Source: an uncultured bacterium (GTDB lineage Bacteria > Bacillota_I > Bacilli_A > Izemoplasmatales > Hujiaoplasmataceae). From it: a DNA stretch of 52,898 bases. Positions 5,366 to 29,251 of this stretch are shown here, piece after piece. The stretch covers positions 1-52,898 of the forward strand of contig CAIMSF010000146.1 of the NCBI GenBank assembly GCA_903844055.1, given 5' to 3'. Both the position numbers and the translations under genes were made by a program. The notes below the pieces were generated by a model that was not told the DNA's origin, did no database searches, and saw nothing but the letters and a program-made list of their open reading frames with translations. How positions within the stretch are numbered: the stretch's first letter is position 1; every line of letters begins with the position of its first letter.

Positions 5366-5366
5366 T

Positions 5367-5777: not shown

Positions 5778-5793
5778 CGAAAACGATTGAAAT

Positions 5794-5828: not shown

Positions 5829-5840
5829 TCATTTGATGAA

Positions 5841-8498: not shown

Positions 8499-8509
8499 GG
8501 GTGTGCTCC

Positions 8510-11752: not shown

Positions 11753-11789
11753 GGTTTGCCTCCGGCGCGGCATTTTCGTTATATATAAT

Positions 11790-11818
11790 ATTATATAATA
11801 TTCATATATAAATTTCAA
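11790..11818 (-). promoter_or_regulatory. Promoter of the yaaA-recF-gyrB-gyrA operon
   Basis: TTGAAA (11813-11818) and TATAAT (11790-11795) on the minus strand with an ideal 17-base spacer, inside a very AT-rich patch that stands out from the GC-rich surroundings. Confidence 0.75.
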
Positions 11819-11876
11819 TCGAAATCGACGCTTGGCGCATCTTTCGAGAACCCGCCGGACATCGCCCGAATGCCGC

Positions 11877-11910
11877 TATAAAAACGTAAAGACGCGCATT
11901 TTCGCGCGTC
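11877..11910 (-). terminator. Terminator after mfd
   Basis: GACGCGC/GCGCGTC stem of 7 bp with a 6-base loop, followed on the minus strand by TTTACGTTTTT. It lies about 20 bases after the mfd stop and isolates mfd from the yaaA promoter. Confidence 0.7.
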
Positions 11911-11931
11911 TCGTTTCTTGTTTTTTGACGG

Positions 11932-14900
11932 TTACCGGGTCACGATTTCCAGGAAGGTCGTCATCGTGAAGAGCCAATGACGGTCGAGTTTGATGGTGTC
12001 CAGGATGATGTGGATCCGATTGTTCTTGAAGGTGAAGCGGAAGTATTTCGACACGTCGTTGCCGGTATCGAAGACCTTGACGCCGGACAGCCGCGCCGAG
12101 GCGTCCTCGCCGACGACGAGCGTGACGTTGGTCTTCGTCTCGAGGACCTTCTCGACGCCGGCCTTTTCAGACAGATGTTCGAATAGTTTCTCATACATGT
12201 AGATTTCCAGATCCGGATCGTAGCGTCCGAACCGGTCGGTGAACTCCTCGAGGAGGTTCGCGACGTCGGCGCGGGAGCGGACCGACCCGATCTTGTTGTG
12301 CATCTCCATCTTGACGAAGTCGTCGTCGACGTACGCGCCGTCGATGTACTTCGACACGGTGGCCTTGACCTTCGCGGGTTTTTCCGGTTCGGCGACGCCC
12401 TGCTGATAACGGATCTCCTCCTGCAGGATGCGCATGTAGAGGTCGACGCCGACCGAATCGATGAAGCCGGATTGCTCGCTGCCGAGCACGTCGCCGGCGC
12501 CGCGGATCGAGAGGTCGCGCACGGCGATCTTGAAGCCCGAGCCGAGTTCCGTGAACTCCTTGATCACCTTGAGGCGCTTCTCTGCGTCTTCGGTGAGCAC
12601 CTTGTCCTTCTTATACATCAAGTACGAATAGGCGATGCGGTTCGACCGGCCGACGCGGCCGCGGATCTGATAGAGCTGCGCCAGTCCGAGGCGGTCGGCG
12701 TCATGGATGATGAGCGTGTTCGCGTTGGGGATGTCGATCCCGGTCTCGATGATCGTGGTCGACACGAGCACGTCGTATTCGCGTTCGATGAACCCTTCGA
12801 CGACGTTCTCGAGCTGGATCTTGTTCATCTGCCCGTGCGCCACGGCGATGCGGGCTTCGGGCACCATCTTGCGGATGTTCGCCTCGACGCGCTCGATGTC
12901 GTCGATGCGGTTGTAGATGTAGAACACCTGGCCGTGCCGCGCGAGTTCGCGTTCGATCGCGTCCTTGATGACGGTGTCGTTGCGCTCGAGCACATACGTC
13001 TGGATCGGATAGCGGTTCTCCGGCGCGGTTTCGAGGAGCGACATGTTCTTGACGCCCATGATCGCCATCTGGAGCGTGCGCGGGATCGGCGTGGCCGACA
13101 GCGACAGGACGTCGACGTTGACCTTCATCTCCTTGATGCGCTCCTTGTGTTCGACGCCGAAGCGCTGCTCCTCGTCGATCACGAGCAGCCCGAGGTCCTT
13201 GAAGACGACGTCCGTCGACAGGATCCGGTGCGTGCCGATGAGGACATCGACGGTGCCGTTCTTCAATCCATCCAGAACGGCCGTCTGATCCTTGCGGGTC
13301 ACGAACCGGTTCATCAGCTTGACGTTGATGCCGTACTTCTCCATGCGGTTGACGAAGGTGTGGAAGTGCTGGCGCGAGAGTACGGTCGTCGGCGCGAGGT
13401 AGGCCACCTGCTTGTTGGAGAGGACGGCCTTGAAGGCCGCGCGGAGCGCCACCTCGGTCTTCCCGAAGCCGACGTCGCCGCAGAGCAGGCGGTCCATCGG
13501 CCGGGCGTCCTCCATATCCTTCTTGACGTCCTGGATCGCGCGCAGCTGATCCGGGGTCTCGTCGTACTCGAAGTCGGCTTCGAAGTCGGCCTGCATCGGA
13601 TCGTCCGGGGCGAACGCGAAGCCGACCGAATGCTCGCGCTGGGCGTAGAGGTTGATCAGTTTCTCGGCGATGTCCGCGGCCTTGGCGCGGACGCGCTGTT
13701 TCGTCTTCGCCCAGTCGCTGCCGCCGAGCTTGTTGAGATGGGGTTCGAACCCTTCGCTGCCGGCGTACTTCTGGATCTGCGCGATCGCGTCGACGGGGAT
13801 GTAGAGCTTGTCGCCGTCGCGGTATTCGATGTGGATGTAGTCGTTCTTGGTCGCGCCGAGTTCCATCGTCTTGATCTCGAGGAAGCGGCCGATTCCATAA
13901 TCGTAGTGGACGACATAGTCGCCGGGCTTGAGTTCGTTGACGGACGAAAGCCGCTTGCTGTTCTGATAGACCGAGACGTAGCGTCCCCGCTTCGGGATCG
14001 GCTGCTTGCGCGAGAGCGCGGCCTCCGTGATCACGACCAGTCCGCCGGTTTCCAGCGAAAGGTCGAAGTAACGCTCCGAGGCGATCAGGTTGACGACGTT
14101 CGGCGCAGGCGCGTCGCGCTCGCCGATGACCGCGAACGGCACGCCGCGCTCTTCGAACATGTCGCCGAGGTTGTCGCGCGTCTTGACCGTACGGACCGCC
14201 ACGATCACCGTGTTCTTGCGGAGCAGCGCGCCGACGTCGCGATAGAACGCTTCGAAATCGCCTTCGTATTGAGCGGGTCCGCGTCCGAAGATCTTCACGG
14301 TCGCGTCGAACGGTTCGGGATAGGAACGGTCGAGCAGGTCCATCGCGACGACAGTCCCGAAATCGATCCCGTGCAAATCGAACAGAAGGTCGAATCCCAT
14401 CTTGGCGTAGTCGCCGGTCGAGAGATACCAGTCGGTCATTTCGGCGGTCATCGCGTCGAACTGCTCGTAGACGCGGTGGTGGTCGAAGAAACAGACGACC
14501 GGCCGATCCAGCAGCTCGACGAGGGTCGTCCGGGCGCCGGTCAGGATCGGGATGTAACGCGACAGCCGGTCAAGATCGCGATGTTCCATGATCGCTTCGC
14601 GGTCGAGCTCGATCCGCTCCAGGGCGACCGGCGAGAAGGCGGTCGCGGCGGTCTTCCCGTCGATGAAACCGAGGAGCCTCCGCATCCCGTCCTCATCGTA
14701 GAAGAACTCGTACATCGGCATCACCGAAAAACCGTCGACGGTGCCGGTCGAACGCTGCGACTCGATGTCGAAGATCTTGATCTTCTCGAGCGTGTCGCCG
14801 AAAAAATCAAGCCGGAAGGGCTTCGGCTGGTTGAGCGGGAAGACGTCGAAGATGCCGCCGCGCAGGCTGAAGTCGCCCGGCTTCTCGACGGTGTACTCGC

Positions 14901-15390
14901 GCTTGTAGCCGACCTCGACGAGACGGCGCGCGAGCGCCTCGACATCGTAGTCGGACCCCGTCGCAAAATGCATCTCGGCCTTCTTCCACTCCGCCTTCGG
15001 CATCATCGGCCGGACCAGTCCGGCGGTATGCGTGACGATGATCTTGCGCTTGCCGTCGACGATGTCCTGGATCGCGTTGATGCGCTCCATCTTGAACTCG
15101 TTGGAGGCGACGAGCATCTCGCTCGTGATGAATTCGTCCTGCGGGAAGAAGCCGAGCGCGTCCTCGCCGACGGCGATCGAGAGGCGGTCGTATAAAAGCT
15201 GGGCCTTGTACAGGTTCGGGGCGCAGACCACGAGCGGCCGATCGGTGTCTTCGAACAGCGAAAGGACGAGCGCGGCCATGTCTTCCTCGCTCAGTTCGTT
15301 CACCAGGATTGTTCCCGCCGGTTTGTTGACCCATCGCCGGATCTGCAGGTACTCGGGGACCTTTTTCAGGATGCCAAGGGCTTGTTTCAT
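11932..15390 (-). CDS. mfd: Transcription-repair coupling factor
   Basis: Mfd is a DNA translocase that removes RNA polymerase stalled at lesions and recruits UvrA. The length of 1152 residues is normal. In order: UvrB-like N-terminal part (about 1-350), RNA-polymerase-interacting region with P-G-D-Y-V-V-H-Y-D-Y-G-I-G-R-F, RecG-like helicase core with Walker A G-D-V-G-F-G-K-T-E and D-E-E-Q-R-F-G box, the translocation motif region G-R-V-G-R-S, and a C-terminal TRCF domain. The ribosome binding site is GAGGTG. In Bacillus mfd follows pth; here pth is about 20 kb away and mfd sits behind an SDR gene. Confidence 0.98.
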   Translation of the reverse strand: MKQALGILKKVPEYLQIRRWVNKPAGTILVNELSEEDMAALVLSLFEDTDRPLVVCAPNLYKAQLLYDRLSIAVGEDALGFFPQDEFITSEMLVASNEFKMERINAIQDIVDGKRKIIVTHTAGLVRPMMPKAEWKKAEMHFATGSDYDVEALARRLVEVGYKREYTVEKPGDFSLRGGIFDVFPLNQPKPFRLDFFGDTLEKIKIFDIESQRSTGTVDGFSVMPMYEFFYDEDGMRRLLGFIDGKTAATAFSPVALERIELDREAIMEHRDLDRLSRYIPILTGARTTLVELLDRPVVCFFDHHRVYEQFDAMTAEMTDWYLSTGDYAKMGFDLLFDLHGIDFGTVVAMDLLDRSYPEPFDATVKIFGRGPAQYEGDFEAFYRDVGALLRKNTVIVAVRTVKTRDNLGDMFEERGVPFAVIGERDAPAPNVVNLIASERYFDLSLETGGLVVITEAALSRKQPIPKRGRYVSVYQNSKRLSSVNELKPGDYVVHYDYGIGRFLEIKTMELGATKNDYIHIEYRDGDKLYIPVDAIAQIQKYAGSEGFEPHLNKLGGSDWAKTKQRVRAKAADIAEKLINLYAQREHSVGFAFAPDDPMQADFEADFEYDETPDQLRAIQDVKKDMEDARPMDRLLCGDVGFGKTEVALRAAFKAVLSNKQVAYLAPTTVLSRQHFHTFVNRMEKYGINVKLMNRFVTRKDQTAVLDGLKNGTVDVLIGTHRILSTDVVFKDLGLLVIDEEQRFGVEHKERIKEMKVNVDVLSLSATPIPRTLQMAIMGVKNMSLLETAPENRYPIQTYVLERNDTVIKDAIERELARHGQVFYIYNRIDDIERVEANIRKMVPEARIAVAHGQMNKIQLENVVEGFIEREYDVLVSTTIIETGIDIPNANTLIIHDADRLGLAQLYQIRGRVGRSNRIAYSYLMYKKDKVLTEDAEKRLKVIKEFTELGSGFKIAVRDLSIRGAGDVLGSEQSGFIDSVGVDLYMRILQEEIRYQQGVAEPEKPAKVKATVSKYIDGAYVDDDFVKMEMHNKIGSVRSRADVANLLEEFTDRFGRYDPDLEIYMYEKLFEHLSEKAGVEKVLETKTNVTLVVGEDASARLSGVKVFDTGNDVSKYFRFTFKNNRIHIILDTIKLDRHWLFTMTTFLEIVTR

Positions 15391-15410
15391 CGTTTCACCT
15401 CATGCGGACA

Positions 15411-15433
15411 CGGCGAGTCTCTCCGACTCGCCG
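15411..15433 (-). other. Hairpin between the SDR gene and mfd
   Basis: Perfect 8-bp inverted repeat CGGCGAGT/ACTCGCCG with a 7-base loop in the 79-base gap. No T-run follows on the minus strand, so it looks like an RNA-stabilising or processing hairpin rather than a terminator. Confidence 0.35.
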
Positions 15434-15469
15434 GGGTATATGCGATGCGCGCCCGGTGACGGGCCGCGA

Positions 15470-16219
15470 TCACTTCTTTTTCTGGATGGCATAGGCGGTC
15501 GACAGGACCGCCTTGAGCGGTAAAAAGCGCAGGAAGAAGCGGGTCAGCCGCATCATGAAGCCAGGCAGGATCACGCGCCGGTTGCGATACAGGCCGCGAA
15601 CGGCGATCTTCGCGCATCGTTCCGCGCTCATCCCCGGCAGGGCGGTCCTGGCGCCCGCGACGGCGCCGAATTCGGTATGGACCGGACCTGGGCAGAGGGT
15701 CAGGACGCGGATCGGCTTCTTCGCTTTTTGAAGTTCGTAATCGATCGCGGTCCCGAGGTGGTGGACATAGGCCTTGGTGGCGGCGTAGGCCGCAAGCAGG
15801 GGCGTCGGCAGGAAGCCGGCCATGCTCGCGACGTTCATGATCTTCCCCTCGCCCATCGACTGGACGAACAGTTTCGTCAGGATATGGACCGCCGCGACGT
15901 TGGTGTCGAGCATCGCAAGGTCGCCCGCCAGATCATGCTCCGCGAAGGTGCCGACGCGGCCGAAGCCGGCGTTGTTGACGACGATCTTCGGATCGTACTC
16001 GAGGCACTCCCAGTGCAATTTGACGCAATTGTCGCGGATGGACAGGTCGACCGGCTTGACGACGACGTTCACGCCGTACGCGCCGCCGAGTTCGACCTTG
16101 AGTTCTTCGAGTTGCTCGACGCGTCGGGCGACGAGGATGAGATCGACCCTTCGGGCCGCCAGCAGACGGGCGATTTCGCGTCCGATGCCGCTCGAGGCGC
16201 CGGTGATCAGTGCATACAT
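15470..16219 (-). CDS. Short-chain dehydrogenase/reductase
   Basis: Cytoplasmic NAD(P)-dependent oxidoreductase of the classical SDR type, 249 residues. The cofactor motif T-G-A-S-S-G-I-G is at 6-13, N-N-A-G follows mid-protein, the catalytic Ser is in N-V-A-S-M-A-G, and the active-site Y-A-A-T-K supplies Tyr and Lys. The basic, hydrophobic C-terminus (R-F-F-L-R-F-L-P-L-K) may touch the membrane, as in DltE/YqjQ-like members. The ATG start has GGAGG upstream; a longer frame upstream overlaps the GH13 gene. It lies 25 bases after that gene. Substrate unknown. Confidence 0.87.
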   Translation of the reverse strand: MYALITGASSGIGREIARLLAARRVDLILVARRVEQLEELKVELGGAYGVNVVVKPVDLSIRDNCVKLHWECLEYDPKIVVNNAGFGRVGTFAEHDLAGDLAMLDTNVAAVHILTKLFVQSMGEGKIMNVASMAGFLPTPLLAAYAATKAYVHHLGTAIDYELQKAKKPIRVLTLCPGPVHTEFGAVAGARTALPGMSAERCAKIAVRGLYRNRRVILPGFMMRLTRFFLRFLPLKAVLSTAYAIQKKK

Positions 16220-16244
16220 GGGTGGTTCCTCCGTGATTCGACCG

Positions 16245-17909
16245 TCATCGGTCGAAATCGATCTTGATCCAGTCGTACGCCCCGACCAGATGGTCGACGC
16301 CCTCGCATGCATACCGTTCCGCATGGTCTTGATGGTTCATGACGATTCGTACGGTACGGCCGTCCAGGCTTCGTTCGAAGATGAATAGCGACGGATGCGG
16401 AAGGATCGAGAACGATCCGCGGCGCAGCCGGCCGTCGGCCTTGCGCCAGTCCGAAAGACGCGCGTAGAACGCAAGCAGGTCCTCGTCCCAAGTCTCCCGG
16501 CGCCAGTCCATCGTGCGCCGGTTGTCGGGGTCGTAACCGCCCTCCATGCCGATTTCGGAACCATAATAGACACATGGCATACCGATATATGCGAATTGGA
16601 ATAATATCGCCATCTTTAGCCATTTCACATTATTATTGGCTTGTGTCTTGGCGCGGGGTACGTCATGCGAGTCGATTTGGTTCAGAAGGGCTCGGGAGAC
16701 GTTCTCCGGATACATCATGGATAGATGCGTGAGGCGGTCCCGGAAAGTGTCGAGGGTCGTTTTCCGACGCAGGAAGTAATCGCCGACGATTTCGTAAAAC
16801 TGGTAGTTCTGGACCGCGTCGAACTGGTCGCCGCGGAGGTAGTAGTCCGAATTGTGCCAGACTTCGCCGATGATCGCCAGCTCCGGCTTGAGCTTCTTCA
16901 GTTCCTTGCGGAAACGTCGCCAGAAGACGGAATCGACCTCGTCGGCGACATCCAGACGCCATCCGTCGATGCCGAAACGCTCGATATAGTGCTTCCCGAC
17001 CCCGATCAGGTAGTCCTGTACCCCGGGATCGGCCGAATTCAGCTTCGGCATGTGCATCTCGGAAGCGAAGGTCTGATAGGTCTTGTCCTTCACCATCGCG
17101 ATTGGGAACGAATCGATCAAGAACCAGTCCTTGTAGATGCTCTTTTCCTGGTTTTTGAGGACGTCTTGGAAGGCGAAGAACCCGGACCCGCAATGGTTGA
17201 AGACGGCGTCGAGGACGATCCGGATGCCGGCCTGATGGAACGCGTCGACGAGCCGCTTGAACTCCGCTTCGGTGCCGAGGCGCGGGTCGATCGCAAGATA
17301 ATCAGTCGTGTCGTAGCGGTGGCAGGAGGGCGAAAGCGAGATCGGCGTCATGTAGACGGCGTTCACGCCGAGCGCGACGAGATGCGGGATCTTGCTTTCG
17401 ATGCCCGCGAAATTCCCGCCGTAGACGTGATACCACGTGGGTTTTTCGCCCCACGGCTGAAGCCCCGGCTCGGCGGCGCCTATCCGGCAGAACCGGTCGG
17501 GGAAGATCTGGTAGAAGATCGCGTCCTGCATCCATTCCGGCGCGTCGAAGCGGTCGCAGTCCTGGATCCGCGGCATCTCGTACGCGCCCATGCGGACCGG
17601 TTCCTCGCGCTGGAGGCCGTATTCGCCGTAATACCAGACGTCGTCATGCTCGACGATGCGGAAATAATAGATGCACCCATAGTTGGCGGGAACGAAGGTC
17701 GCCTGATAGTAGGCGAACAGCGCGTCGCTCCCGATCTTGACCATCGGATGGGAACGGCGGAGGCGATAATCGTGGAACCGATTGTATTCGACCAGTTCGA
17801 TCGCGAGTGCGTCGTCCTTCGCCGCGCGGAAGCGCAGCGAGAGCGCCCGCCGGTCCGCTACGTATCCCCATTCGGAGTTGGCGTGATGGAACAGCGCTTC
17901 GCGGATCAT
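16245..17909 (-). CDS. Cytoplasmic GH13 cyclomaltodextrinase/neopullulanase-type enzyme
   Basis: Alpha-glucan hydrolase of GH13, subfamily-20-like, 554 residues without a signal peptide. The N-terminal CBM34-like beta-domain (about 1-120) is the hallmark of cyclomaltodextrinases and maltogenic amylases. In the barrel, D-A-V-F-N-H is at 234-239, G-W-R-L-D gives the nucleophile Asp320, I-I-G-E-V gives the acid Glu349, and D-S-H-D gives Asp416. It should cleave imported maltodextrins or cyclodextrins to maltose and glucose. Its start overlaps the lgt stop (ATGA). A paralogue of the same type lies at 32.4 kb. Confidence 0.9.
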   Translation of the reverse strand: MIREALFHHANSEWGYVADRRALSLRFRAAKDDALAIELVEYNRFHDYRLRRSHPMVKIGSDALFAYYQATFVPANYGCIYYFRIVEHDDVWYYGEYGLQREEPVRMGAYEMPRIQDCDRFDAPEWMQDAIFYQIFPDRFCRIGAAEPGLQPWGEKPTWYHVYGGNFAGIESKIPHLVALGVNAVYMTPISLSPSCHRYDTTDYLAIDPRLGTEAEFKRLVDAFHQAGIRIVLDAVFNHCGSGFFAFQDVLKNQEKSIYKDWFLIDSFPIAMVKDKTYQTFASEMHMPKLNSADPGVQDYLIGVGKHYIERFGIDGWRLDVADEVDSVFWRRFRKELKKLKPELAIIGEVWHNSDYYLRGDQFDAVQNYQFYEIVGDYFLRRKTTLDTFRDRLTHLSMMYPENVSRALLNQIDSHDVPRAKTQANNNVKWLKMAILFQFAYIGMPCVYYGSEIGMEGGYDPDNRRTMDWRRETWDEDLLAFYARLSDWRKADGRLRRGSFSILPHPSLFIFERSLDGRTVRIVMNHQDHAERYACEGVDHLVGAYDWIKIDFDR

Positions 17910-18703
17910 GCGGCCACCTCGTTATGCGGTGCGGTCCCGGCGTCCTTCGCCAGACGAACGAGGAGGTGGACGCCGATCGCGACCATCGCGAGCGACAGGT
18001 ATTGGGATGGCGACGGATAGATGTTGCCATGAAGCGTGAAGAGGCCGACGATCGTGCCGCGGTCGTCCCCCCTGAGGAATTCCAGAAGGAAGCGGAAAAC
18101 GCCGTAGGCGGTCAAATAGGACGCGAATTCACGCCCTTTGAACAGCTTGTACGTGTGTATCGCGTACGCGGACAGAAATAGGAAAGCGGATTCGTACAGC
18201 TGCGTCGGCAGGACCGCGCCGGTCCCTGCGGAGTGTCCGTGCGGGAACACGAGACCGAACGTTTCCGACGGGATGCCGTAGCAGCAGCCCGCGCAGAAGC
18301 AGCCGAGCCGGCCGAAGCCGTGCGCGATCAGGATCCCGACGGTGACGGTGTTCAACAAGCTTCCGATGTTCTTCCATTCGGAACGGTAGAAGAACCGCAT
18401 CAAGAGCGTGAACATCGCGACGCCGCCGATCAATCCGCCGATGAAGGTGATCGAACCGAATTCGAACTCGCCGTCTTCGATCCAGTGGAAGGTGGCGTCG
18501 AAAAGCGCCGAGAACAGGAGGGCGGAGCCAAGCCCGATGACGATGAACACGAGGATCTTGTTGGCTTCCTTGCGGGTATAGCCGTCGTTCTTCTCCAGCC
18601 GGTTCCCGACATACATGAGCATCCCGAACACGCCGATGGCGGTCAAAAGGTCGTACATCGCGACGTTGTAACCCAAGACTTCTTCCCATAGGAACGGATA
18701 CAT
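17906..18703 (-). CDS. lgt: Prolipoprotein diacylglyceryl transferase
   Basis: Lgt is an integral membrane enzyme that moves diacylglycerol from phosphatidylglycerol onto the lipobox cysteine of prolipoproteins. The product has 265 residues and about seven hydrophobic segments. The signature region H-G-F-G-R-L-G-C-F-x-x-G-C-C-Y-G is present with the essential His and Arg. The start has AAGGAG nine bases upstream. The gene overlaps the GH13 gene by 4 bases, so the two are co-translated. Several clients are encoded nearby (GH16, MalE-like, amylase and YidC lipoproteins). Confidence 0.95.
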   Translation of the reverse strand: MYPFLWEEVLGYNVAMYDLLTAIGVFGMLMYVGNRLEKNDGYTRKEANKILVFIVIGLGSALLFSALFDATFHWIEDGEFEFGSITFIGGLIGGVAMFTLLMRFFYRSEWKNIGSLLNTVTVGILIAHGFGRLGCFCAGCCYGIPSETFGLVFPHGHSAGTGAVLPTQLYESAFLFLSAYAIHTYKLFKGREFASYLTAYGVFRFLLEFLRGDDRGTIVGLFTLHGNIYPSPSQYLSLAMVAIGVHLLVRLAKDAGTAPHNEVAA

Positions 18704-18813: not shown

Positions 18814-19869
18814 TCAGCCCTTGGTGGCGCCGGCGGTGATGCCTTCGATGAGATAACGCTGGAAGATCATGTAGAGGACCGTGATCGGGAAGGCCACGAT
18901 GAGCGCCCCGGCGGCGAACGTCGTATACGACGAACTCCGCGGATTGTTGATCATCGAGAACAGGCCGACCGCGAGCGTCCACTGCCTGGAGACTGGAATG
19001 TCCGGGTCGATCTGGACGTCGAGCAGGAGGCGCGGCAACATGTAGTCCATCCACGGCGCCATGAATTGGCCGACGGCGACGAACGACAGGATCGGGACCG
19101 CGAGCGGCAGGATGATCTTGAAGAAGATCTGCCACTTGCTGGCGCCGTCGAGCATCGCCGACTCGTCGAGGTCCTTCGGGATCTGCGAGAGGTAACCCTT
19201 GATCAGCCAGATGTTGCCGGGGATCGAGCCGCCCACGTAGAGCACGGTGAGCCAGGTCGGCTTGCCGAGCAGATGGAACGTCTGGAACAGCGTGAACATG
19301 GCGATCAGGCCCATGAACGACGGGAACACCTGCAGGACGAGGATGGCCATCAGGCCGGCCTTCTTGCCTTTGAACTTGAAGCGGGCGAACACGTAGCCGG
19401 CGCCGGTGATGAAGATGACGCCGAGGACCATGTTGAGGACGGCGATGATCAGCGTGTTCTTGTACCAGTACAGGAAGTCGCCCTCGAACAGGTCGATGTA
19501 GTTCTGGAACGAGGCGAGGTGCGCCGGCGGGAAGAGCGTCGTCGGCAGCTCGCTGATGTTCGTGAACGAGGCGCTGATCAGGTAGACGACCGGGAACAGG
19601 ACGAAGAACACGGCGGTGGTGAGAAACAGGAACGTCAGGATCTTCATGCCGATTTCCTTGAAGGAGAAGACCTGGCGGTACGCGCCGACGAGCACTTGCT
19701 TCTTGTTGGCAAGATGGAGCGCATGATACAGTCCGTAGCCCGGGACGAGGCCCATGAGCGCGCCGCGGAAGGGCGGGTAGCCCTTGTGGGCGTAGACGTC
19801 GGCGGTGATCGCGCTGTGGGTGAAGAGCAGGGAGATGAGGACGATGATGGTCAATGTGAGCGGCAGCAT
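18814..19869 (-). CDS. Maltodextrin ABC transporter permease, MalG-like
   Basis: One of two membrane subunits of the maltodextrin importer, 351 residues. The standard MalG core with six membrane segments begins near residue 75. The EAA loop that contacts the ATPase reads D-E-S-A-M-L-D-G-A-S, followed by I-L-P-L. An extra N-terminal section of about 70 residues (hydrophobic segment 1-20, then V-P-G-Y-G-L-Y-H-A) is unusual for MalG. It is the last gene of the operon, 5 bases after the malF-like stop. No ATPase gene (MalK/MsmX type) is present in the window, so a shared one elsewhere is inferred. Confidence 0.92.
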   Translation of the reverse strand: MLPLTLTIIVLISLLFTHSAITADVYAHKGYPPFRGALMGLVPGYGLYHALHLANKKQVLVGAYRQVFSFKEIGMKILTFLFLTTAVFFVLFPVVYLISASFTNISELPTTLFPPAHLASFQNYIDLFEGDFLYWYKNTLIIAVLNMVLGVIFITGAGYVFARFKFKGKKAGLMAILVLQVFPSFMGLIAMFTLFQTFHLLGKPTWLTVLYVGGSIPGNIWLIKGYLSQIPKDLDESAMLDGASKWQIFFKIILPLAVPILSFVAVGQFMAPWMDYMLPRLLLDVQIDPDIPVSRQWTLAVGLFSMINNPRSSSYTTFAAGALIVAFPITVLYMIFQRYLIEGITAGATKG

Positions 19870-19874
19870 GTTCG

Positions 19875-22334
19875 TCAGTCCTCCTTAAATGCTCGCGTCT
19901 GCGAGAAGTTCCAGGCCGCGATGGACCCGACCATGAGGAAGATGAGGATCGAGAAGACGGACGCCATGTTGTAGACGCGCTTCGTGACGGTCAGCGTGTA
20001 CATCCAGGAAATCAGGATGTCCGTGCTGCCGGCATAGGCCCTGTCGATATCGCCCGCGCCGGATCCTCCTTGGGTGATGAAGTAGATGACGCCGAAGTTG
20101 TTGAAGTTGCCGGAGAAGGTCATGACGAGGATCGGCGACGTCGAGAACATGATGAGCGGGAACGTGATGTACTTGAATTTCTGCGAAGGCGTCGCGCCGT
20201 CGATGTCGGCGGCCTCGTAGAGGGTCCGGTCGATCGAGGTCATGATCGAGGTCATGAGGGCCATGAAGTACGGCGCCCCGAGCCAGATGTTGACGACGAT
20301 CAGGACGATCCGGACGAACCAGACGTTGTGCGCGTTGTTGAACCACTGGATGTTGTCCTGGCCGAGCCAGATGAACTTCTGCCAGGCCGACAGGGCCGTT
20401 TCGCTCCACGCCGTGCCGAGCATCCCCCAACGGGTCAGGGTGTCGTACACGCCGGCGGAACGCAGGAGCGCGTTGATGACGCCGCGTTCGCTGAAGATGA
20501 TCGAGAAGGCCATCTGCGAGATCAGCGCGGGCACGGCCCACGGCAGGATCAGGAGGGTTCTCCAGAATTTCTTGAAGGGGACGCGTTCGGAACTGATCAC
20601 GACCGCCTGGAACATGCCGCCGAAGAAGACGGTCACGGTTGAGAAGACAGCCCAAATCACGGTCCAGAACAGGACTTTCCAGAACGTCTCGGCGAACGGG
20701 ATGCCTTCGCCGAACGTGAAGATGCGGGCGAAGTTCTCGAACCCGACCCACATGAAGCGTCCGGTGTCGGTGTCGAAGCCGCTGAAGTTCGTGAAGGCGA
20801 TCAAAAAGCCGAAGACGATCGGCATGATCGAGATGAAGGTGATGACGAAGAGCGCCGGCAAGATCATGATGTATTCGAAGCCGTGCGTGAAGACGCTCAC
20901 GAACCATTCGCGGTCGGTCACGCGCTCACCCGTTTGGGCGAACTTCCTGCTCGTCGAATAGGCGTCGATGATGCCCCAGACATACGTCAGGAGGAAATAG
21001 GCGAACAGAAGCGTCGAGATCAGACCCGAGATGAGCAGGAACTGCGAGGTATGCCCGATCAGCGGCGTGTAGTCGAGGATTCCCGATACCGGGATGTAGA
21101 CCGCCGATCCTTCCGTGAAGCGGACGGATTTAAGGGCGTCGTGGAGCGAGTTGTAGTAATACTCGCGCTTGTCGGACTGACCGAGCGTCAGGACCGACCA
21201 GAACCCCTTGACGAAGAATCCCGCGGTGTCGTGGAACCAGTTGTAATAGTTCTCCTCGAATTCCGTCCGGAGTTCGGGATGGACCGAGAAATAGACTTCG
21301 AGCAGGAAGCGGTTGTATTCCTTCGAGGTCAGGCTGCTCGTCGAGAGGTTGTAGCGCGTCGTGATGTAGTTGCGCAGATAGCTCGAGAAGGCGGTGGCGT
21401 TGTAGCCGGCGTCCTTCCGATAGTCGATTTCCGGGATGAACTGCACATACAGCGTGTCGGTGTCGTCGACGACGATGTTGCCCTTGACCGTCAATTCCTT
21501 CAGATCGTCGACCAGCGGATCCTCGGGATCGATGAAGTCGGTGCTGTCGGCGATGTTGACATAACGGTAAATGGCGGTCGAGGTGACCGAAATCGACTTC
21601 GTGCATTTGATGTAGACCTTGTCGGCGACGGCGTCGAGGAAGATCACGCCGGTGCGGTAGTAGGAGTCGGCTCCGTCCGGAATCTCGGTGATCGTATCGT
21701 CCGGGTCGTTGACGTTGGTATAGACGTCCGCGGTCTGTTCGCTGCCGATCGTGTAGTATTCCTGTCCGCCGACGTTGTAGACGGTGAAACCGGAGAGGAC
21801 GCGATAGAAGTCCTTCGCCGCGATCGCCTCGTCGTCCTCGCCGATGATCAGGTCGTTGGCTTCGTCGACCGTGCCGGTGTTCGAGGTCCGCGCGGTCGTC
21901 GAGGTCACGACGAGATCGTCGATCAGGGTGAAATAGCGCGGGGTCGAATGGGCGAGGATGTCGGTTGCGGTGAAGTCGACCAGATCGCGCATCGTGAATC
22001 CGTCGGCGTCGGCGCTTTCGATCGCGTAGAAGGCGTCGAACGTGTCGAACGCATCGATTTCATCGCCGTCGACCTGGTACCGATACAGACTGTAGAAACC
22101 TCTCGCGAAACTGTCGGGATACAATTCGCCGACGCCCGAGTTCGCGTCGCTTACGACCTTGATGTAGGAATCATAATCGCTGAAATAGCGGCTCGAACCA
22201 AGTTCGACGCCGAGGAAGAGCGCGAACACGAAGAAGAAGACGAGCGCCTTCCAGAACTGCTTATTGAAAACCTGGCCGAGGCCGGGCACGATCGCCGAAG
22301 CGACCGCCTTGATCACATGAACGGTTTTGTTCAT
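19875..22334 (-). CDS. Maltodextrin ABC transporter permease, MalF-like, with large extracellular domain
   Basis: Second membrane subunit of the importer, 819 residues, far longer than E. coli MalF (514) or typical Gram-positive MalF proteins. After a cytoplasmic V-P-G-L-G-Q-V-F-N-K segment and a first membrane helix (about 29-45), a hydrophilic region of about 385 residues (46-430), rich in Asp, Thr and Tyr, should lie outside the cell. Membrane segments resume at about 432-455 and 488-512, and the C-terminal half is a normal permease with the EAA loop E-A-A-D-I-D-G-A. The extracellular region has no family I recognise; it may receive or hold the binding protein, as the MalF P2 loop does. 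GGAGG precedes the start. Confidence 0.92.
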   Translation of the reverse strand: MNKTVHVIKAVASAIVPGLGQVFNKQFWKALVFFFVFALFLGVELGSSRYFSDYDSYIKVVSDANSGVGELYPDSFARGFYSLYRYQVDGDEIDAFDTFDAFYAIESADADGFTMRDLVDFTATDILAHSTPRYFTLIDDLVVTSTTARTSNTGTVDEANDLIIGEDDEAIAAKDFYRVLSGFTVYNVGGQEYYTIGSEQTADVYTNVNDPDDTITEIPDGADSYYRTGVIFLDAVADKVYIKCTKSISVTSTAIYRYVNIADSTDFIDPEDPLVDDLKELTVKGNIVVDDTDTLYVQFIPEIDYRKDAGYNATAFSSYLRNYITTRYNLSTSSLTSKEYNRFLLEVYFSVHPELRTEFEENYYNWFHDTAGFFVKGFWSVLTLGQSDKREYYYNSLHDALKSVRFTEGSAVYIPVSGILDYTPLIGHTSQFLLISGLISTLLFAYFLLTYVWGIIDAYSTSRKFAQTGERVTDREWFVSVFTHGFEYIMILPALFVITFISIMPIVFGFLIAFTNFSGFDTDTGRFMWVGFENFARIFTFGEGIPFAETFWKVLFWTVIWAVFSTVTVFFGGMFQAVVISSERVPFKKFWRTLLILPWAVPALISQMAFSIIFSERGVINALLRSAGVYDTLTRWGMLGTAWSETALSAWQKFIWLGQDNIQWFNNAHNVWFVRIVLIVVNIWLGAPYFMALMTSIMTSIDRTLYEAADIDGATPSQKFKYITFPLIMFSTSPILVMTFSGNFNNFGVIYFITQGGSGAGDIDRAYAGSTDILISWMYTLTVTKRVYNMASVFSILIFLMVGSIAAWNFSQTRAFKED

Positions 22335-22380
22335 TGGATACCTCCCATGACATGCTTCCGATCCTTCCACTTATTAGGAA

Positions 22381-22429: not shown

Positions 22430-23737
22430 TTATTTCGAGCCGAGCGCCTTGGATGCGAGATACGATGCTTCGGCTTTCTTCTGTTCCGTCGCGATGTCGG
22501 CGTTGGTGTCCCAGATGTTGACGACCATCGTTTGCGCGGCCGCCCAGTAATAGGTGACTTCGGCGATGGTGGGCATCGGGATGGAGGTCTGGAGCTGTTC
22601 GATCATGACGGTCATGAACGGGTCGTCGAGAACGCCTTCGATGTTCGAAAGGTCGATCAGGGCCGGCAGGTCGTTCGAGGTCGTGTACAGGATTTCCTGG
22701 GCGGTTTCGCTGGCGAGGAATTCGACGAACTTGATCGCGGCTTCGCGGTTCGAGGAGTTCTTGTAGACGGCGACCATCTGCGAGCCGGCATAGGTGCTCG
22801 GCGTGTGGGTCGCGCCTTCGACGCCGTCAAACGTCGGGAGGACGGCGGCGCCGAGGTTCTCGGCACCGATCGCATCCTGCATCGAGCGAATCGACCACGG
22901 GCCGGCGATCATCATCGCGGCGGCGCCTTGTTCGAACAGCGTGGTGGAGGCGGAGTTGTACGCGTCGTTTCCGGTGACGACCGGCTTCAGTTCGGTGGTC
23001 AGCCAGTTGAGCGCGGCGAGCAGTTCGTCGGATTCGAAGCCGACTTGCGTGCCGTCGATGCCGTCAACGCCGTGCGGACGCCATCCGAAGGCGGAGTAGA
23101 CCGTCTGGAGGTAGTAGTTGTCGGCCCAATGGGAGTTGGTCGTGAGCAACTGCTCGCCGGGGTGGTCGATCGCATACTGTTCGGCGGCGGCGATCAGTTC
23201 GGGCCAGCTGTCGAGCGCGGCGACTTCTTCGGCGCTGATGAGTTCCTTGTTGTACATCATGAAGATCGATTCGATCGAGATCGGGACGGCATACAGCGCT
23301 TCATTGCTCGAGCCGAGCGTGCCGGCGGTCGCGATGTCGAGGGCGATCGGCTGAACCGTCGCCTTCAGCGTGGTGAGCAGCGAGTCCGGAAGCGTGTAGA
23401 CGAGGTCTTCGAGCATGGCGAGCGAGAGGTGGTCATGCGGGAACATGAACACGTCGGCTCCGAGTCCTTCGACGAGACCATAGGTCTTCAGGTCGTTGCG
23501 GGAGTCGAGGGCGCCCTTGTGCTGGAATTCGACGATGATGTCCGGATAGACTTCGTTGAAGGCCGGGATGACTTCGGCGGCGAAGACGCCGTCGGTGTCG
23601 TCGAGCCACACGGTGATCGTGGTGGGCTGGGTCTGGCTTTCGGAGAAGTCGATGATGTTGTCTTCGAGTTCGACGCCGCAGGCGGAGAGCGCGAAGAGGA
23701 CGATGAGGGTCAAAAATACGCTAAGAAGTTTTTTCAT
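22430..23737 (-). CDS. Maltodextrin-binding lipoprotein, MalE-like
   Basis: Extracellular solute-binding protein of family 1, 435 residues, tethered by lipid at Cys20 (lipobox L-S-A-C). After the signal peptide and a short acidic linker, the mature fold starts with T-I-T-V-W-L-D-D and includes typical family features such as Y-A-V-P-I-S-I-E-S, M-Y-N-K-E-L and A-M-M-I-A-G-P-W. It delivers maltodextrins to the two permeases encoded downstream. The start ATG-AAA-AAA-CTT has AGGAGA upstream; it is 23 bases after the CBM41-like gene, with no separate promoter seen. Confidence 0.93.
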   Translation of the reverse strand: MKKLLSVFLTLIVLFALSACGVELEDNIIDFSESQTQPTTITVWLDDTDGVFAAEVIPAFNEVYPDIIVEFQHKGALDSRNDLKTYGLVEGLGADVFMFPHDHLSLAMLEDLVYTLPDSLLTTLKATVQPIALDIATAGTLGSSNEALYAVPISIESIFMMYNKELISAEEVAALDSWPELIAAAEQYAIDHPGEQLLTTNSHWADNYYLQTVYSAFGWRPHGVDGIDGTQVGFESDELLAALNWLTTELKPVVTGNDAYNSASTTLFEQGAAAMMIAGPWSIRSMQDAIGAENLGAAVLPTFDGVEGATHTPSTYAGSQMVAVYKNSSNREAAIKFVEFLASETAQEILYTTSNDLPALIDLSNIEGVLDDPFMTVMIEQLQTSIPMPTIAEVTYYWAAAQTMVVNIWDTNADIATEQKKAEASYLASKALGSK

Positions 23738-23760
23738 GGCAGTGTCTCCTCTCATCCCAC

Positions 23761-26184
23761 TCAGAACCATTCTTTTCGGCGGGCGAAGAAGAACGCGACG
23801 CCGAAGAGTCCGAGGATCCCGATGCTCGCGTTCTGCGCGGCGCAGCCGGTTTCCGGTGCTGTGATGGTGATGTTGAACGTTGCCTGGGTTTCATTGCCCC
23901 AGTCGTCGTAGGCGGTGACGGTGATCGGGTAGACGCCGGCCTTGTTCATGTTGACGATGCCTTCTTCGGGCTTCACATAAATCCGGTCGGAGACGTTTCC
24001 GTCGCGGTCGTCGATGGCGCGGATGTTCGGCCAGTAGCTGGTGTCCCAAGCCGTTCCGGCGACGAACGTGAGTTCTTCGGTGAGCAGGACGGTGATGACC
24101 GGGCCCTCGGCGTCCGTGACGACATCGACTTCGGCGGCGCGGTTGTCAAGGCCTTCGGCGCCGTTGTCGAACTGCAGGACATATTCATGTCCGGATTCGA
24201 GTTCGACGTTGAGTTCGACGGCGAGTTCGGTGATGACGTCCTTGTCCTCATTGAAGCTGACGCTCTTGATCGCGTTTTCGACGGCGACGCCATCCTTCAG
24301 CAGGGTGAACATGGCGGCGACATCGTACAGAGCGCGTTCGTAACTGGTTTCTTCATATTCGACATAGTCGTAGATCGCGACTTTTTCGGTTTCGACCATC
24401 AGTTCGAGGACGAAGCGGTCGTGATCGGGAGACCAGGTCTTGTCGCTGAAGCCGGTATAGACGACGAGGACGTCGCCGGCAACCATCGTGCCGAAGCCGG
24501 CGCCGGTGCCGTTGTTGACGTCGCCGGTCTTCTTGGAGGGATCGTCACCGGCATAGACCAAGTAACCGATCCAGTCTTCTTCGACCGCGGGATCGAAGGA
24601 GTTCATGACGGCGACGCCGGGAACATCGTCCGGGCTCTTGAAGGACTCCGTCATCGGGATCGACTGACCCCAGTCGCCTTCCTGGTTGGTCCAGGAGCCC
24701 CAGGTGTAGATGCCGAGGTTGGCTTCGTAGGTTCCGTCGCTCTCATAATACAGCGTGATGATGTTGGCTTTGGCCGGGTCGGCGACGAAGTACGTCTGGA
24801 AGCCGCCCTGGAAGTAGTAGACATGGATTTCGTCGACGGTGCCGTTCTTGATCGCGGTGACGTCGAAGTTGATGTGCTGTCCGTCCGGCGTTTCGCGGTA
24901 GGTCCAGCGGTCGTCGGTGCCGATCGAGTCGGCGATCGGGATCAAGCCGATGGTGTCGGAAGCGTCGTCGTCGACGTTGATGACCATGACGGCGCCGAAA
25001 TCATCGACGCCCGAGCGGATGACCGGTGCGCCCGTTCCGTCCGTGCCGGTGCCCCAGGTCCACAGACCGACGTCGGAATAGTCGCTGTCCCACTTCTGAT
25101 AGTGGAAGACGACGCGGCCGGCGACGTTGCTGGGAATGTCGGAAGCGACGTACGGATCATAGACGGTGTCGTCGATCGTGATTCCGCCGGATCCGGTCGG
25201 AATGTATTCGTAACCGACGATTTCGTACAGTTCGTAGGTGGTGACGATCGGCTGGGTCATGTCTTCGTAGGCCGAAGCGACTTCCGCCGAGAACTTGACC
25301 TGGATGATCGACTTGGTCAACGCGTAGGTTCCGTCGAGTTTGCCTTCGATCATGCTGTAAGGCGTGAACTTGAAGGCGAACGAGGAATCGGCGAAGAGGG
25401 TGACGTTGTCGAATCCCTGCCACTGTTCGGCCGCCGCATAGAGGGCGGTGCAGTCGCCGGCGACAAGGCCGGTCACATCGATCGCGACGTCGCCGGTTTT
25501 CTTGGTGGCGTCGTTGCCCGCGTAGATGATGAGGTTCGGCGTGCCGCCGTCAACGATGGCCTGCGCCATGCCGACTTTGCCGAGTTTGCCTTCCGGCGTG
25601 GTGAATTCGCCGGTGAAGATCGGCGTCGGGGTGCCCCAAACGCCCCACGAGCCGATATTCGCGTCGTTGTACCATCCGCCCCAAGCATGGAGGCCGAGGT
25701 TCTCTTCATACACTTCGGAAGCGGTGAAATAGACGACGAAGACGTTGATGTACTCTTCGCTGGCGACGAAAATCGTGTCGGATCCGCTGAAGAAATACAC
25801 ATGCATCGTCGCGCCGGCCGCCGCCGCGGTGACGTCGAGCGAAAGGTCGGCATCGCCCTTGGAGTCCTTGTTGGACCAACGGTTGTCATTGCCGATTTCA
25901 GCCGAGATCGGAATGATGCCGGCGGTGGTCGCATCCGCGCCGATGGCGATTTCGATCACGGCGCCGAAATCATCGACGCTGGTCTTCTCCAGACCGTTCG
26001 AACTGCCGTCGGTGCCGGTGCCCCAAACCCAAAGACCGACACTGTCATATACTCCGTCCCACTTCTGATAGTGGAACACGACTTGTCCGGCCGCGGCGGC
26101 GTCGACGGTGAGATTCTTCGTCGACATCGCGAAGCCGAGCAAAGCCGTTACCGCGAAAAACAGTAGCAACAGACTTTTTTTCAT
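23761..26184 (-). CDS. Surface starch-binding protein with duplicated CBM41/PUD-like modules and P-E-T-G-C anchor
   Basis: Secreted protein of 807 residues without any glycosidase domain. A signal peptide (about 1-30) is followed by two related repeats, about 28-270 and 385-625. Each opens with V-V-F-H-Y-Q-K-W-D, continues G-L-W-x-W-G-T-G-T-D-G and ends near K-K-T-G-D-V. Each repeat appears to hold two CBM41-type (pullulanase-associated, alpha-glucan-binding) modules, four in all. A DUF5011/Ig-like domain follows at about 690-775. The C-terminus is A-P-E-T-G-C (Cys781), a hydrophobic stretch and R-R-K-E-W-F, like a sorting signal. It leads the malEFG operon; a role in capturing starch at the cell surface is inferred. 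AGGAGG precedes the start. Confidence 0.85.
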   Translation of the reverse strand: MKKSLLLLFFAVTALLGFAMSTKNLTVDAAAAGQVVFHYQKWDGVYDSVGLWVWGTGTDGSSNGLEKTSVDDFGAVIEIAIGADATTAGIIPISAEIGNDNRWSNKDSKGDADLSLDVTAAAAGATMHVYFFSGSDTIFVASEEYINVFVVYFTASEVYEENLGLHAWGGWYNDANIGSWGVWGTPTPIFTGEFTTPEGKLGKVGMAQAIVDGGTPNLIIYAGNDATKKTGDVAIDVTGLVAGDCTALYAAAEQWQGFDNVTLFADSSFAFKFTPYSMIEGKLDGTYALTKSIIQVKFSAEVASAYEDMTQPIVTTYELYEIVGYEYIPTGSGGITIDDTVYDPYVASDIPSNVAGRVVFHYQKWDSDYSDVGLWTWGTGTDGTGAPVIRSGVDDFGAVMVINVDDDASDTIGLIPIADSIGTDDRWTYRETPDGQHINFDVTAIKNGTVDEIHVYYFQGGFQTYFVADPAKANIITLYYESDGTYEANLGIYTWGSWTNQEGDWGQSIPMTESFKSPDDVPGVAVMNSFDPAVEEDWIGYLVYAGDDPSKKTGDVNNGTGAGFGTMVAGDVLVVYTGFSDKTWSPDHDRFVLELMVETEKVAIYDYVEYEETSYERALYDVAAMFTLLKDGVAVENAIKSVSFNEDKDVITELAVELNVELESGHEYVLQFDNGAEGLDNRAAEVDVVTDAEGPVITVLLTEELTFVAGTAWDTSYWPNIRAIDDRDGNVSDRIYVKPEEGIVNMNKAGVYPITVTAYDDWGNETQATFNITITAPETGCAAQNASIGILGLFGVAFFFARRKEWF

Positions 26185-26222
26185 TTTTTCCTCCTGTAAT
26201 GATTTTTGTCTCTGTCCACAAG

Positions 26223-26292
26223 TGTAAGCGCTTGTGTCCATTTGAACGTGTTTAATTCTACTACTTTCATATAATGAATGCAAGCGTTTTTA
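26223..26292 (-). promoter_or_regulatory. Promoter and two cre-like operators of the CBM41-malEFG operon
   Basis: TTGCAT (26278-26283) and TAGAAT (26255-26260) on the minus strand with a 17-base spacer. TGTAAGCGCTTGTG (26223-26236), with the palindromic core AAGCGCTT, lies about 12-25 bases into the transcript. TGCAAGCGTTTTTA (26279-26292) overlaps the -35. Both resemble TGWAANCGNTNWCA (11 and 12 of 14 positions). A LacI-family repressor (CcpA or MalR type) is the likely binder. Confidence 0.6.
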
Positions 26293-26305
26293 CTGCTGTG
26301 CAAAA

Positions 26306-26358
26306 CGTAATCGGTTACAGACTCAAATGCGAAAAACCCACATTTTTTGTGCTAGAAT
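26306..26358 (+). promoter_or_regulatory. Pullulanase promoter with upstream cre-like operator
   Basis: CGTAATCGGTTACA (26306-26319) matches the cre consensus at 13 of 14 positions. The -10 is TAGAAT (26353-26358) preceded by TGC, an extended -10; no good -35 is seen. The operator lies about 45-60 bases before the expected start, between the two divergent promoters. Confidence 0.55.
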
Positions 26359-26398
26359 AGAGACGTACATCCGATTCACCATACAAGGGGGAATTTCC

Positions 26399-29251
26399 GT
26401 GATTAAAAAGATCGCTTTGATTCTGTTTCTTGCATCGTCGCTCCTGTTCATTCCGACCTTCCGGCGCGTCGAGGCCACCACCGCGTCCCCGACCGAAACG
26501 ATGGTGATCCACTATTTCCGCTATGGTGCCGACTATGACGACGGCTGGAACATGTGGTTGTGGCCCGCCAACGGCGCCGGCGCCGCCTATCAGTTCGACA
26601 CCGATCAAACCGGCGTCGTCACCGACGACTTCGGCGCGGTCGCCACGATCGACCTGACCACCAACTTCGCGAGCGCGTCCTCCATCGGCATCATCATGCG
26701 CCAGGGCGAGTGGGTGAAGAAGGATGTCGACAAGGACCGCTTCATCACCGTCCCGGCGACGACCGCGGACGGCACGCTCCACGTCTACTTCGTCGAAGGA
26801 GACGAGCGGATCGGTTATTCGATCGACGATCCCGCCGGGCCCGACCGCTCGGACAAGATCGTCAACGCCTACTTCAGCACGCTCAGGACGATCCGCTTCA
26901 CCCTGACGTCCGTCATCGCCTCCGGCAACATCAACCTCAAGGTCAACGGCGTCGACGCGAGCTTCACGATCGCGCTCTCCGCCAACACCGGCACGATCAC
27001 GATCCCCTCGAACGTCAACCTCGAGAACACCTACACGCTCGAAGTGCTGTTCGGATCCGAACTCAAGACGTATGACGTCACGTTCGACGGCATCTACGAT
27101 ACGACCGCCTTCATCGACGCCTACGGCTATGACGGCGACGACCTTGGCGCCGTGGTCAACGCCTCGACCACCGACTTCCGCGTGTGGGCGCCGATCTCAT
27201 CCTCGGTCGTGCTCAAAATCTATGATTCCGGCACCCCCGCGAGACTTCTCGCCAAGGATGCCGCCGCGACCGACACGCCTTCCCAGACGGTCGCGATGAC
27301 GAAGAGCGTGAAGGGCACCTGGACCGCCTCCCTCCCCGGAAATCTGCACGGCAAATACTACACCTACACCGTCACCAACGGCATCAAGACCAACGAGCTG
27401 GTCGACCCGTATGCGAAGAGCTGCGGCATCAACGGCCTCCGCGGGATGGTCGTCGACTTCAGCCAGACCAACCCCGCCGGCTTCACCTACGGCGACCGTC
27501 CCGGTTCGATGCTGAACTACACGGACGCGATCATCTATGAAGTCCACGTCCGCGACCTCACGAGCCATTCGAGCTGGGTCGTCGCAAGCGGTCAGGAGGC
27601 TTATCGCGGGAAATTCCTCGGCTTCACCGTCGAAGGTACGACCTACCAGGGCGTCTCGACCGGCATCGACCACATCAAGGAACTCGGCGTCACCCATGTC
27701 CAGATCCTCCCGTTCTTCGACTATGGAGCCGCCGTCGACGAATCCGGATCGGCCACCCAGTTCAACTGGGGCTACATGCCGCTCAACTTCAACTGCCTCG
27801 AAGGCCACTACTCGACCAACCCGTATAACGGCGCCGTTCGCGTGAACGAATTCAAGCAGCTGATGGCGACGATGTCGGAAAACGGTTTGCGCGTCGTCAT
27901 GGACGTCGTCTACAACCACACCGGCCAAAGCGGCGATTCCAACTTCAGCATGATCCTCCCCGGCTACTACTACCGCATGAACGGCGACGGATCGTTCTCG
28001 AACGGATCCGGCACCGGCAACGAGACGGCCTCCGAACGCTACATGATGCGCAAGTTCATGGTCGATTCCGTGACCTTCTGGGCGGAAGAATACAACATCT
28101 CCGGATTCCGCTTCGACCTGATGGCGCTCCACGACGTCGACACGATGAACCAGATCGTCGCCGCGCTCCATGAGATCGACGACACCATCCTCGTCTACGG
28201 CGAACCGTGGACCGGCGGCGGAACGCCCCTGTCGGCCTCGATCGCGGCCGACAAGGCCAACCTCGTCGACATGCCCGGCGTCGCGGCCTTCAACGACGAC
28301 TTCCGCAACGCCGTCAAGGGCAACCCCGACGGCACCGAGGATGGATTCGTGCAAGACGCGAAAACCACCTCGATCATCAACCGGCTCAAATACGGCGTCG
28401 CCGGCGGCGTCCAACTCCCCGGCATCACGACCGAAGGCCTCTCGTGGGGCAAATTCTGGAACGACAATCCGAGCCAGACCCTGAACTACGTCACCGCCCA
28501 CGACAACCTGACCCTCTTCGACAAACTGACGTACACCGCGACCTTCGCCCAGAAGAGCGGCGGCCTCATCAAGGAAATGCAGAAGCAGGCCAACGCGCTC
28601 GTCCTCACGGCGCAGGGCATCCCGTTCCTGCATGCCGGCGAGGAGTTCCTGCGCTCCAAGCCGTGCGTCGCCGGCGACAATCCCGACGTCTGCGTCGCCT
28701 CCAAGTACAACCGCAACTCCTACCAGTCGCCCGACGCCGTCAACCAGTTGCGCTGGGACCTCAAGGCCCAGGACGACAACATGGAGGTCTTCGAGTATTA
28801 CAAGGACCTGATCGAACTCCGCAAGGCCCATCCGGCCTTCCGGCTGTCGACCGCCGCGGAAGTCGAGGCGCATCTTTCCTTCATCGACTTCGACGACAAC
28901 TCGGTGCTCGGCTACACGATCTCCGACTACGCCAACGGCGACTCCTGGGATACGATCCTGGTGATCCACAACACCGGCGAATTCGCCACCGTCACGCTGC
29001 CGGCCGGCGACACCTGGAATCTCGTGGGCAACCAGGACGGCATCGGTACGGACGTCATCCAGACCTATGCGGGCGGCGCGTCGATGTTCGTCATGGAAAA
29101 CGAGACCGTGGTCCTCTATCAGGGCGTGGTCGTCGTGCCCGAGGAACCGGATACCGGATGCAACTTCCTCGGCTTCCACTTCGGCTCGGTCTTCTATTCG
29201 ATGGGCGCCATCTGTCTCGCGTTCTTCGTCCTCATCCGCAAAAAGCATTAA
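26399..29251 (+). CDS. Cell-surface pullulanase (GH13_14-like) with CBM41 and P-D-T-G-C anchor
   Basis: Extracellular type I pullulanase that debranches alpha-1,6 links in starch or glycogen, 950 residues. GTG start with AAGGGGGA upstream. Signal peptide to about residue 26 (V-E-A), CBM41 at about 33-150, CBM48 at about 240-340, then the pullulanase landmark Y-x-V-H-V-R-D and the GH13 barrel: D-V-V-Y-N-H-T, G-F-R-F-D with nucleophile Asp573, G-E-P-W with acid Glu602, and T-A-H-D with Asp702. The end is E-P-D-T-G-C (Cys921), a hydrophobic stretch and R-K-K-H, matching the anchor of the neighbouring CBM41-like protein. It is transcribed divergently from that gene across a shared regulatory region. 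Confidence 0.94.
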   Translation: MIKKIALILFLASSLLFIPTFRRVEATTASPTETMVIHYFRYGADYDDGWNMWLWPANGAGAAYQFDTDQTGVVTDDFGAVATIDLTTNFASASSIGIIMRQGEWVKKDVDKDRFITVPATTADGTLHVYFVEGDERIGYSIDDPAGPDRSDKIVNAYFSTLRTIRFTLTSVIASGNINLKVNGVDASFTIALSANTGTITIPSNVNLENTYTLEVLFGSELKTYDVTFDGIYDTTAFIDAYGYDGDDLGAVVNASTTDFRVWAPISSSVVLKIYDSGTPARLLAKDAAATDTPSQTVAMTKSVKGTWTASLPGNLHGKYYTYTVTNGIKTNELVDPYAKSCGINGLRGMVVDFSQTNPAGFTYGDRPGSMLNYTDAIIYEVHVRDLTSHSSWVVASGQEAYRGKFLGFTVEGTTYQGVSTGIDHIKELGVTHVQILPFFDYGAAVDESGSATQFNWGYMPLNFNCLEGHYSTNPYNGAVRVNEFKQLMATMSENGLRVVMDVVYNHTGQSGDSNFSMILPGYYYRMNGDGSFSNGSGTGNETASERYMMRKFMVDSVTFWAEEYNISGFRFDLMALHDVDTMNQIVAALHEIDDTILVYGEPWTGGGTPLSASIAADKANLVDMPGVAAFNDDFRNAVKGNPDGTEDGFVQDAKTTSIINRLKYGVAGGVQLPGITTEGLSWGKFWNDNPSQTLNYVTAHDNLTLFDKLTYTATFAQKSGGLIKEMQKQANALVLTAQGIPFLHAGEEFLRSKPCVAGDNPDVCVASKYNRNSYQSPDAVNQLRWDLKAQDDNMEVFEYYKDLIELRKAHPAFRLSTAAEVEAHLSFIDFDDNSVLGYTISDYANGDSWDTILVIHNTGEFATVTLPAGDTWNLVGNQDGIGTDVIQTYAGGASMFVMENETVVLYQGVVVVPEEPDTGCNFLGFHFGSVFYSMGAICLAFFVLIRKKH

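Follow-up and report, generated by a model that had tools for sequence, protein, structure and literature searches.

A [T/S]-G-C tail with C-terminal helix and basic end as a proposed surface-anchoring signal in wall-less Bacilli without sortase

Sortases join proteins to the cell wall, and how large enzymes are held at the surface of single-membrane bacteria that have neither wall nor sortase has, N-terminal lipoproteins aside, to our knowledge been little explored. Two divergent neighbours of a starch-use cluster raise this question in the window, by which we mean the whole stretch of 52,898 nucleotides analysed here (contig CAIMSF010000146.1, from an uncultured member of the Hujiaoplasmataceae, order Izemoplasmatales). 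The minus-strand gene encodes a protein with two PUD (CBM41-like) domains, an Ig-like domain and a Sec signal peptide without lipobox, the plus-strand gene a pullulanase, and both products close with P-x-T-G-C, a helix and basic residues (Table 1). A first-pass annotation had read this end as a dedicated surface-sorting signal with an invariant Cys, either of the sortase type (x-P-x-T-G) or an anchor based on the Cys and akin to short CTERM signals. Translation confirmed both C-termini at their positions: the minus-strand tail is A-PETGC-helix-RRKEWF, with AAQNASIGILGLFGVAFFFARRKEWF and a stop following PETGC, and the plus-strand tail E-PDTGC-helix-RKKH, with NFLGFHFGSVFYSMGAICLAFFVLIRKKH and a stop following PDTGC. 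For the minus-strand gene, ATG 26184, which follows an AGGAGG site, is a likelier start than TTG 26283, and GTG 26399 is a possible start of the pullulanase. In the host genome (206 contigs totalling 1.87 Mb, ~99% complete by estimate), P-x-T-G-C has 28 six-frame matches, and only two of them, those of the window, close a long open frame that has a helix; a tail profile run over the same genome likewise matched these two tails only.

Table 1. Positions of the tailed proteins, their C-terminal elements and the neighbouring candidate machinery.
Feature	Position	Strand	Basis or context
Secreted starch-binding protein, C-terminal TGC tail	23761..26184	-	Domain matches, translation
P-E-T-G-C motif, CCGGAAACCGGCTGC	23842..23856	-	Six-frame motif search, translation
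C-terminal helix and basic end, AAQNASIGILGLFGVAFFFA-RRKEWF	23764..23841	-	Translation
Type I pullulanase (PUD, CBM48, GH13, all-beta domain), C-terminal TGC tail	26327..29251	+	Domain matches, translation
P-D-T-G-C motif	29147..29161	+	Six-frame motif search, translation
C-terminal helix and basic end, NFLGFHFGSVFYSMGAICLAFFVLI-RKKH	29162..29248	+	Translation
Maltodextrin-type substrate-binding lipoprotein, N-terminal lipobox LSAC	22430..23770	-	Translation, domain matches
Two ABC permease genes (19875-22370 and 18814-19869)	18814..22370	-	Between tailed gene and Lgt gene
Divergent Lgt-family (prolipoprotein diacylglyceryl transferase) gene	17906..18703	-	PF01790 match, gene context
Adjacent divergent Lgt and CPBP pair	L092:1342-2979, L094:1321-3006, L096:1333-3035	all -	Three order relatives, including X. 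coldseepsis

Searching the host genome together with its relatives recovered the tail in orthologues as well as on unrelated proteins. Across 48 aligned tails from at least eight unrelated cargo types, Gly is present in every tail, Cys in 47 and Thr or Ser at position -2 in 44, which supports the claim of a dedicated sorting signal with a near-invariant Cys; Ser or Ala follows at +2 in 38, and the Cys sits 27-34 residues before the C-terminal end. Pro at -4, on the other hand, is found in merely 19 and Leu at -5 in two. The T-G-C part of the originally noted P-x-T-G-C thus recurs while its Pro is not kept, and we widened this too narrow motif to a core of [T/S]-G-C, mostly followed by [G/F/A]-[S/A], with all upstream residues variable. 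Indeed, pullulanase orthologues at ~55-90% identity retain the tail without the Pro (KPTGC, ESTGC, ISTGC, IASGC), and G-C is retained in every orthologue found of the PUD/Ig protein. The pullulanase orthologue of relative G002 (L109:9372-12452) ends TGVFFRKPLIS..., without a recognisable TGC tail. In another family of the order, three adjacent large secreted proteins (L101:1-2109, 3415-9051 and 11539-16926) have GCK-type tails, NGCKAS, SGCKSF and FGCKSS, so the residue preceding the Gly appears freer in that family.

The cargo consists of large, secreted and mutually unrelated proteins: GH13, PUD/Ig, GHL10, GH3, phosphatase and PUD/LTD proteins and the binding protein PotD, with several further tailed proteins lacking a Pfam match. 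Three families of the order carry the tail, as do other orders of the class, and named relatives are Acholeplasmatales UBA12489, HGW-Tenericutes-1, Bacillales UBA5603 and Candidatus Izemoplasmatales STD2_261. Profile matches that span the motif were obtained in ~21 of 90 genomes of the order, at one to five per genome; weak matches starting downstream of the motif were counted as noise, and the profile misses some true tails, that of PotD having been seen only on reading a whole genome. G+C is 59% in the window's genus and 33-38% in most relatives, thus the tail persists through a wide change in base composition. Judged from the sequences, recurrence of the tail is not chance, because orthologues from 90% down to ~55% identity keep it and unrelated proteins carry it.

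Could the helix simply be left uncut in the membrane, with the Cys in a lesser role such as packing, S-acylation or a disulfide? A helix that ends in basic residues is an anchor in its own right, the dedicated tail enzymes discussed below are candidates only, and two pullulanase orthologues retain the helix without TGC, in G028 (STGF in place of STGC) and G062 (L155); a plain helix may therefore be enough for some proteins. Such an anchor needs no invariant dipeptide, however, and G-C is held nearly throughout on unrelated proteins while the sequence of the helix is free. Further evidence comes from Xianfuyuplasma coldseepsis zrk13, a cultured organism whose group is described as lacking a wall and whose growth starch stimulates (PMC8397711); we read its complete genome (G032; 1,958,905 bases, 38.2% G+C) whole. 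A crude filter returned eight secreted-looking proteins with a single C-terminal helix and basic end, three of which, two starch proteins and PotD, have [ST]GC directly before the helix, against a background of ~3e-5 per residue in secreted proteins. The single-helix tails without GC exist alongside the GC type, and this coexistence of two types argues against one plain anchor for all. We accordingly regard the uncut helix as a serious but minority possibility.

The sortase-type reading fared worse. Sortase (PF04203) was found in none of 41 genomes (the host and 40 relatives, complete genomes included), and in the class as a whole, 395 genomes, it is present in none of the 34 that are tail-bearing (counted by a tail match that includes the motif) versus 108 of the remaining 361, an exclusion with a Fisher p of 2e-5 when shared ancestry is ignored. 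Loss of sortase has been inferred at the ancestor of Acholeplasmatales, Izemoplasmatales and ML615J-28 (PMC10868615). The suggestion of a possibly wall-less lineage held up: no peptidoglycan transpeptidase (PF00905) was found in the host genome, and the family occurs in five of the 34 tail-bearing genomes versus 169 of the 361 others. That a sortase was merely lost in assembly gaps, as the fit of the window's PETG and PDTG to xPxTG might invite, is therefore highly improbable, considering its absence from complete genomes, the missing transpeptidase in 29 of the 34 and the poor conservation of Pro. For the same reasons, together with the scarcity of the Leu, we rejected the tail as a sortase signal.

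A broader variant, in which an enzyme of sortase-like or archaeosortase-like kind would cleave at the motif and, in the same step, transfer the protein to a lipid or glycolipid, would agree with the tripartite layout, which is common to all such systems, and with the resemblance of the T-G to LPXTG, given that some tails exceed the cut-off of the LPXTG model (TIGR01167), one of them clearly at 20.6 bits against 15.9. No sortase is available for this step, however, nor any exosortase-family protein above cut-off in 90 genomes of the order, and neither LPXTG nor archaeosortase signals have an invariant Cys after the Gly. The host has one rhomboid (PF01694), but the family is missing from tail-bearing G010, G016, G025, G041, G045 and others, on which ground the GlyGly-CTERM/rhombosortase route was also dismissed. 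Taken together, one-step transpeptidation is unlikely.

That the tail serves as a membrane anchor, equivalent in use to N-terminal lipidation, is supported most strongly by an exchange of the two in PotD and the pullulanase, an exchange that is no proof of a lipid on the tail itself. PotD is a substrate-binding protein, and an N-terminal lipid is the usual tether of such proteins in single-membrane bacteria. Among 28 PotD orthologues, 27 are without tail, 26 of them having a strict lipobox and one the near lipobox TYGC. The lone exception is that of X. coldseepsis, encoded directly after potABC, which has no lipobox but an ordinary signal peptide and the end ETGCFSS-helix-KKQK; this clear exchange in PotD is a single event. 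The reverse is seen in the pullulanase, where L036, a homologue from a gut MAG, lacks the tail but has a VISC lipobox, while the tailed homologues are without lipobox. No protein with both elements was seen among the listed tailed proteins, and the three TGC-tailed proteins of X. coldseepsis are not among its 79 N-terminal lipoproteins as identified by a simple rule. The maltodextrin-binding lipoprotein beside the PUD/Ig gene shows that the N-terminal route is in use within the very same cluster. On this comparison of sequences, the tail seems to stand in for the N-terminal lipobox.

If the Cys is lipidated, which enzyme could be responsible? The cluster of the PUD/Ig gene includes an Lgt-family gene, overlooked in the first-pass annotation, and the string of tailed protein, binding lipoprotein, two permeases and Lgt is shared by five genomes (the window and L108, L109, L110 and L116). 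The larger of the two, a maltodextrin permease (19875-22370, minus strand), is 831 aa in all, with a DUF5683-like N-terminal extension. The Lgt gene overlaps the next gene by 4 bp (ATGA), and its product reaches 107.2 bits against the LGT superfamily (PF01790, Pfam cut-off 24.9), but only 61.5 bits against canonical Lgt (TIGR00544, curated cut-off 118.9). The product has no counterpart of the His in the canonical HGG motif, a residue that E. coli Lgt, where it is essential, and the canonical copy of X. coldseepsis both have, and it carries a Cys-rich GRxGCFxAGCCxG motif, GRLGCFCAGCCYG. The canonical copy, a second Lgt (193.4 bits against TIGR00544), lies among copper and heavy-metal genes (L230:5968-6867; G032:1185968-1186867) and was possibly acquired with a metal-resistance island. 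The window's divergent Lgt could thus be a candidate for lipidating the tail Cys or, since X. coldseepsis has its canonical copy among metal genes, the general Lgt of the lineage.

A candidate for removal of the helix is found next to this enzyme. In G026, G032 (X. coldseepsis) and G036, the divergent Lgt gene lies directly upstream of one for a CPBP intramembrane protease, and members of the CPBP group so paired are also present in tail-bearing G019 and, more distantly, in G010. Each of the 15 tail-bearing genomes in the first set encodes CPBP proteins, but so do 40 of 41 in the order overall, and this near-universal presence does not single them out; against the Mrt_core model they score weakly, at 18-24 bits with a cut-off of 100. 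A second CPBP protease, with an FxLYD domain, lies beside hup and der (host copy L104:1101-2546, on G000:C138) and is conserved in the host family, and X. coldseepsis has a shorter CPBP gene near hup. We discarded this copy as the specific tail enzyme, as it is present in family members with and without tails, and co-occurrence cannot decide. The pairing of Lgt and CPBP fits, circumstantially and by analogy, the two-step model of MYXO-CTERM proteins, for which Lgt-like lipidation followed by CPBP cleavage has been proposed (PMC11980579).

We therefore consider it rather probable that [T/S]-G-C, helix and basic end form a C-terminal anchoring and sorting signal that replaces the lipobox in wall-less, sortase-less Bacilli, with lipidation of the Cys, cleavage of the helix and the enzymes as presumed components. 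Of the two readings voiced in the first-pass annotation it is hence the Cys-based anchor that we favour, its processing being conjectural. That [T/S]-G-C equals the last three lipobox positions speaks for this reading, and by analogy the tail Cys is probably lipidated and the tail trimmed, giving an anchor of the MYXO-CTERM kind. The protein would be exported via Sec and lose its ordinary signal peptide, after which the C-terminal helix would halt in the membrane and place the Cys on its outer side. This Cys would receive a lipid from an enzyme of the Lgt family, either the general Lgt or the divergent copy of the cluster, and a CPBP-type protease would then cut the helix away, leaving the protein held at the cell surface by a C-terminal lipid. 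More tentatively, and with doubt, a specialised Lgt paralogue may lipidate the TGC-tail Cys and its partner CPBP remove the helix, so that one protein family is lipid-anchored at the N- or the C-terminus depending on the species.

The tail represents a recognisable answer, across several orders, to surface anchoring without sortase, and some proteins that carry it are probably annotated as LPXTG in error. It also lets N-terminal and C-terminal anchoring of one protein be compared as they occur in nature. The tail is present in a cultured species, X. coldseepsis, and the Lgt/CPBP gene pairs bring the lipidating step proposed in the MYXO-CTERM model within reach of a test.

Among known systems, MYXO-CTERM with the myxosortase MrtX, a CPBP protease, shares with the tail a near-invariant Cys followed by a C-terminal helix and basic end, as well as secreted cargo without N-terminal lipobox, and CPBP proteins of the order match the myxosortase core model weakly. 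Here, however, the motif is T-G-C, the hosts, single-membrane Bacilli without a wall, have neither outer membrane nor type II secretion, and there are one to five substrates per genome rather than dozens; the tails gave no domain match to curated MYXO-CTERM models, only weak matches to MYXO-bearing full-length families, and NCBIfam has no dedicated curated model for the TGC tail. Analogously, the Cys-bearing signals with Mrt enzymes of the JDVT and Synergist types have the same general layout, with local CPBP proteins sub-threshold to MrtJ and MrtS, but differ in motif and lineage, and the scores fall far under the curated cut-offs. The LPXTG signal is alike in its T-G before helix and basic end, yet the tail-bearing lineage lacks sortase and mostly a wall, Leu and Pro are variable and it is the Cys that is near-invariant. 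Finally, the N-terminal lipobox (Lgt/LspA) corresponds to [T/S]-G-C at -2, -1 and Cys and interchanges with it in PotD and pullulanase, but the tail lies at the C-terminus with the helix after the Cys and not before, an opposite topology. The tail is thus best described as a new lineage variant of Cys-bearing C-terminal sorting signals, serving as a membrane anchor in wall-less Bacilli.
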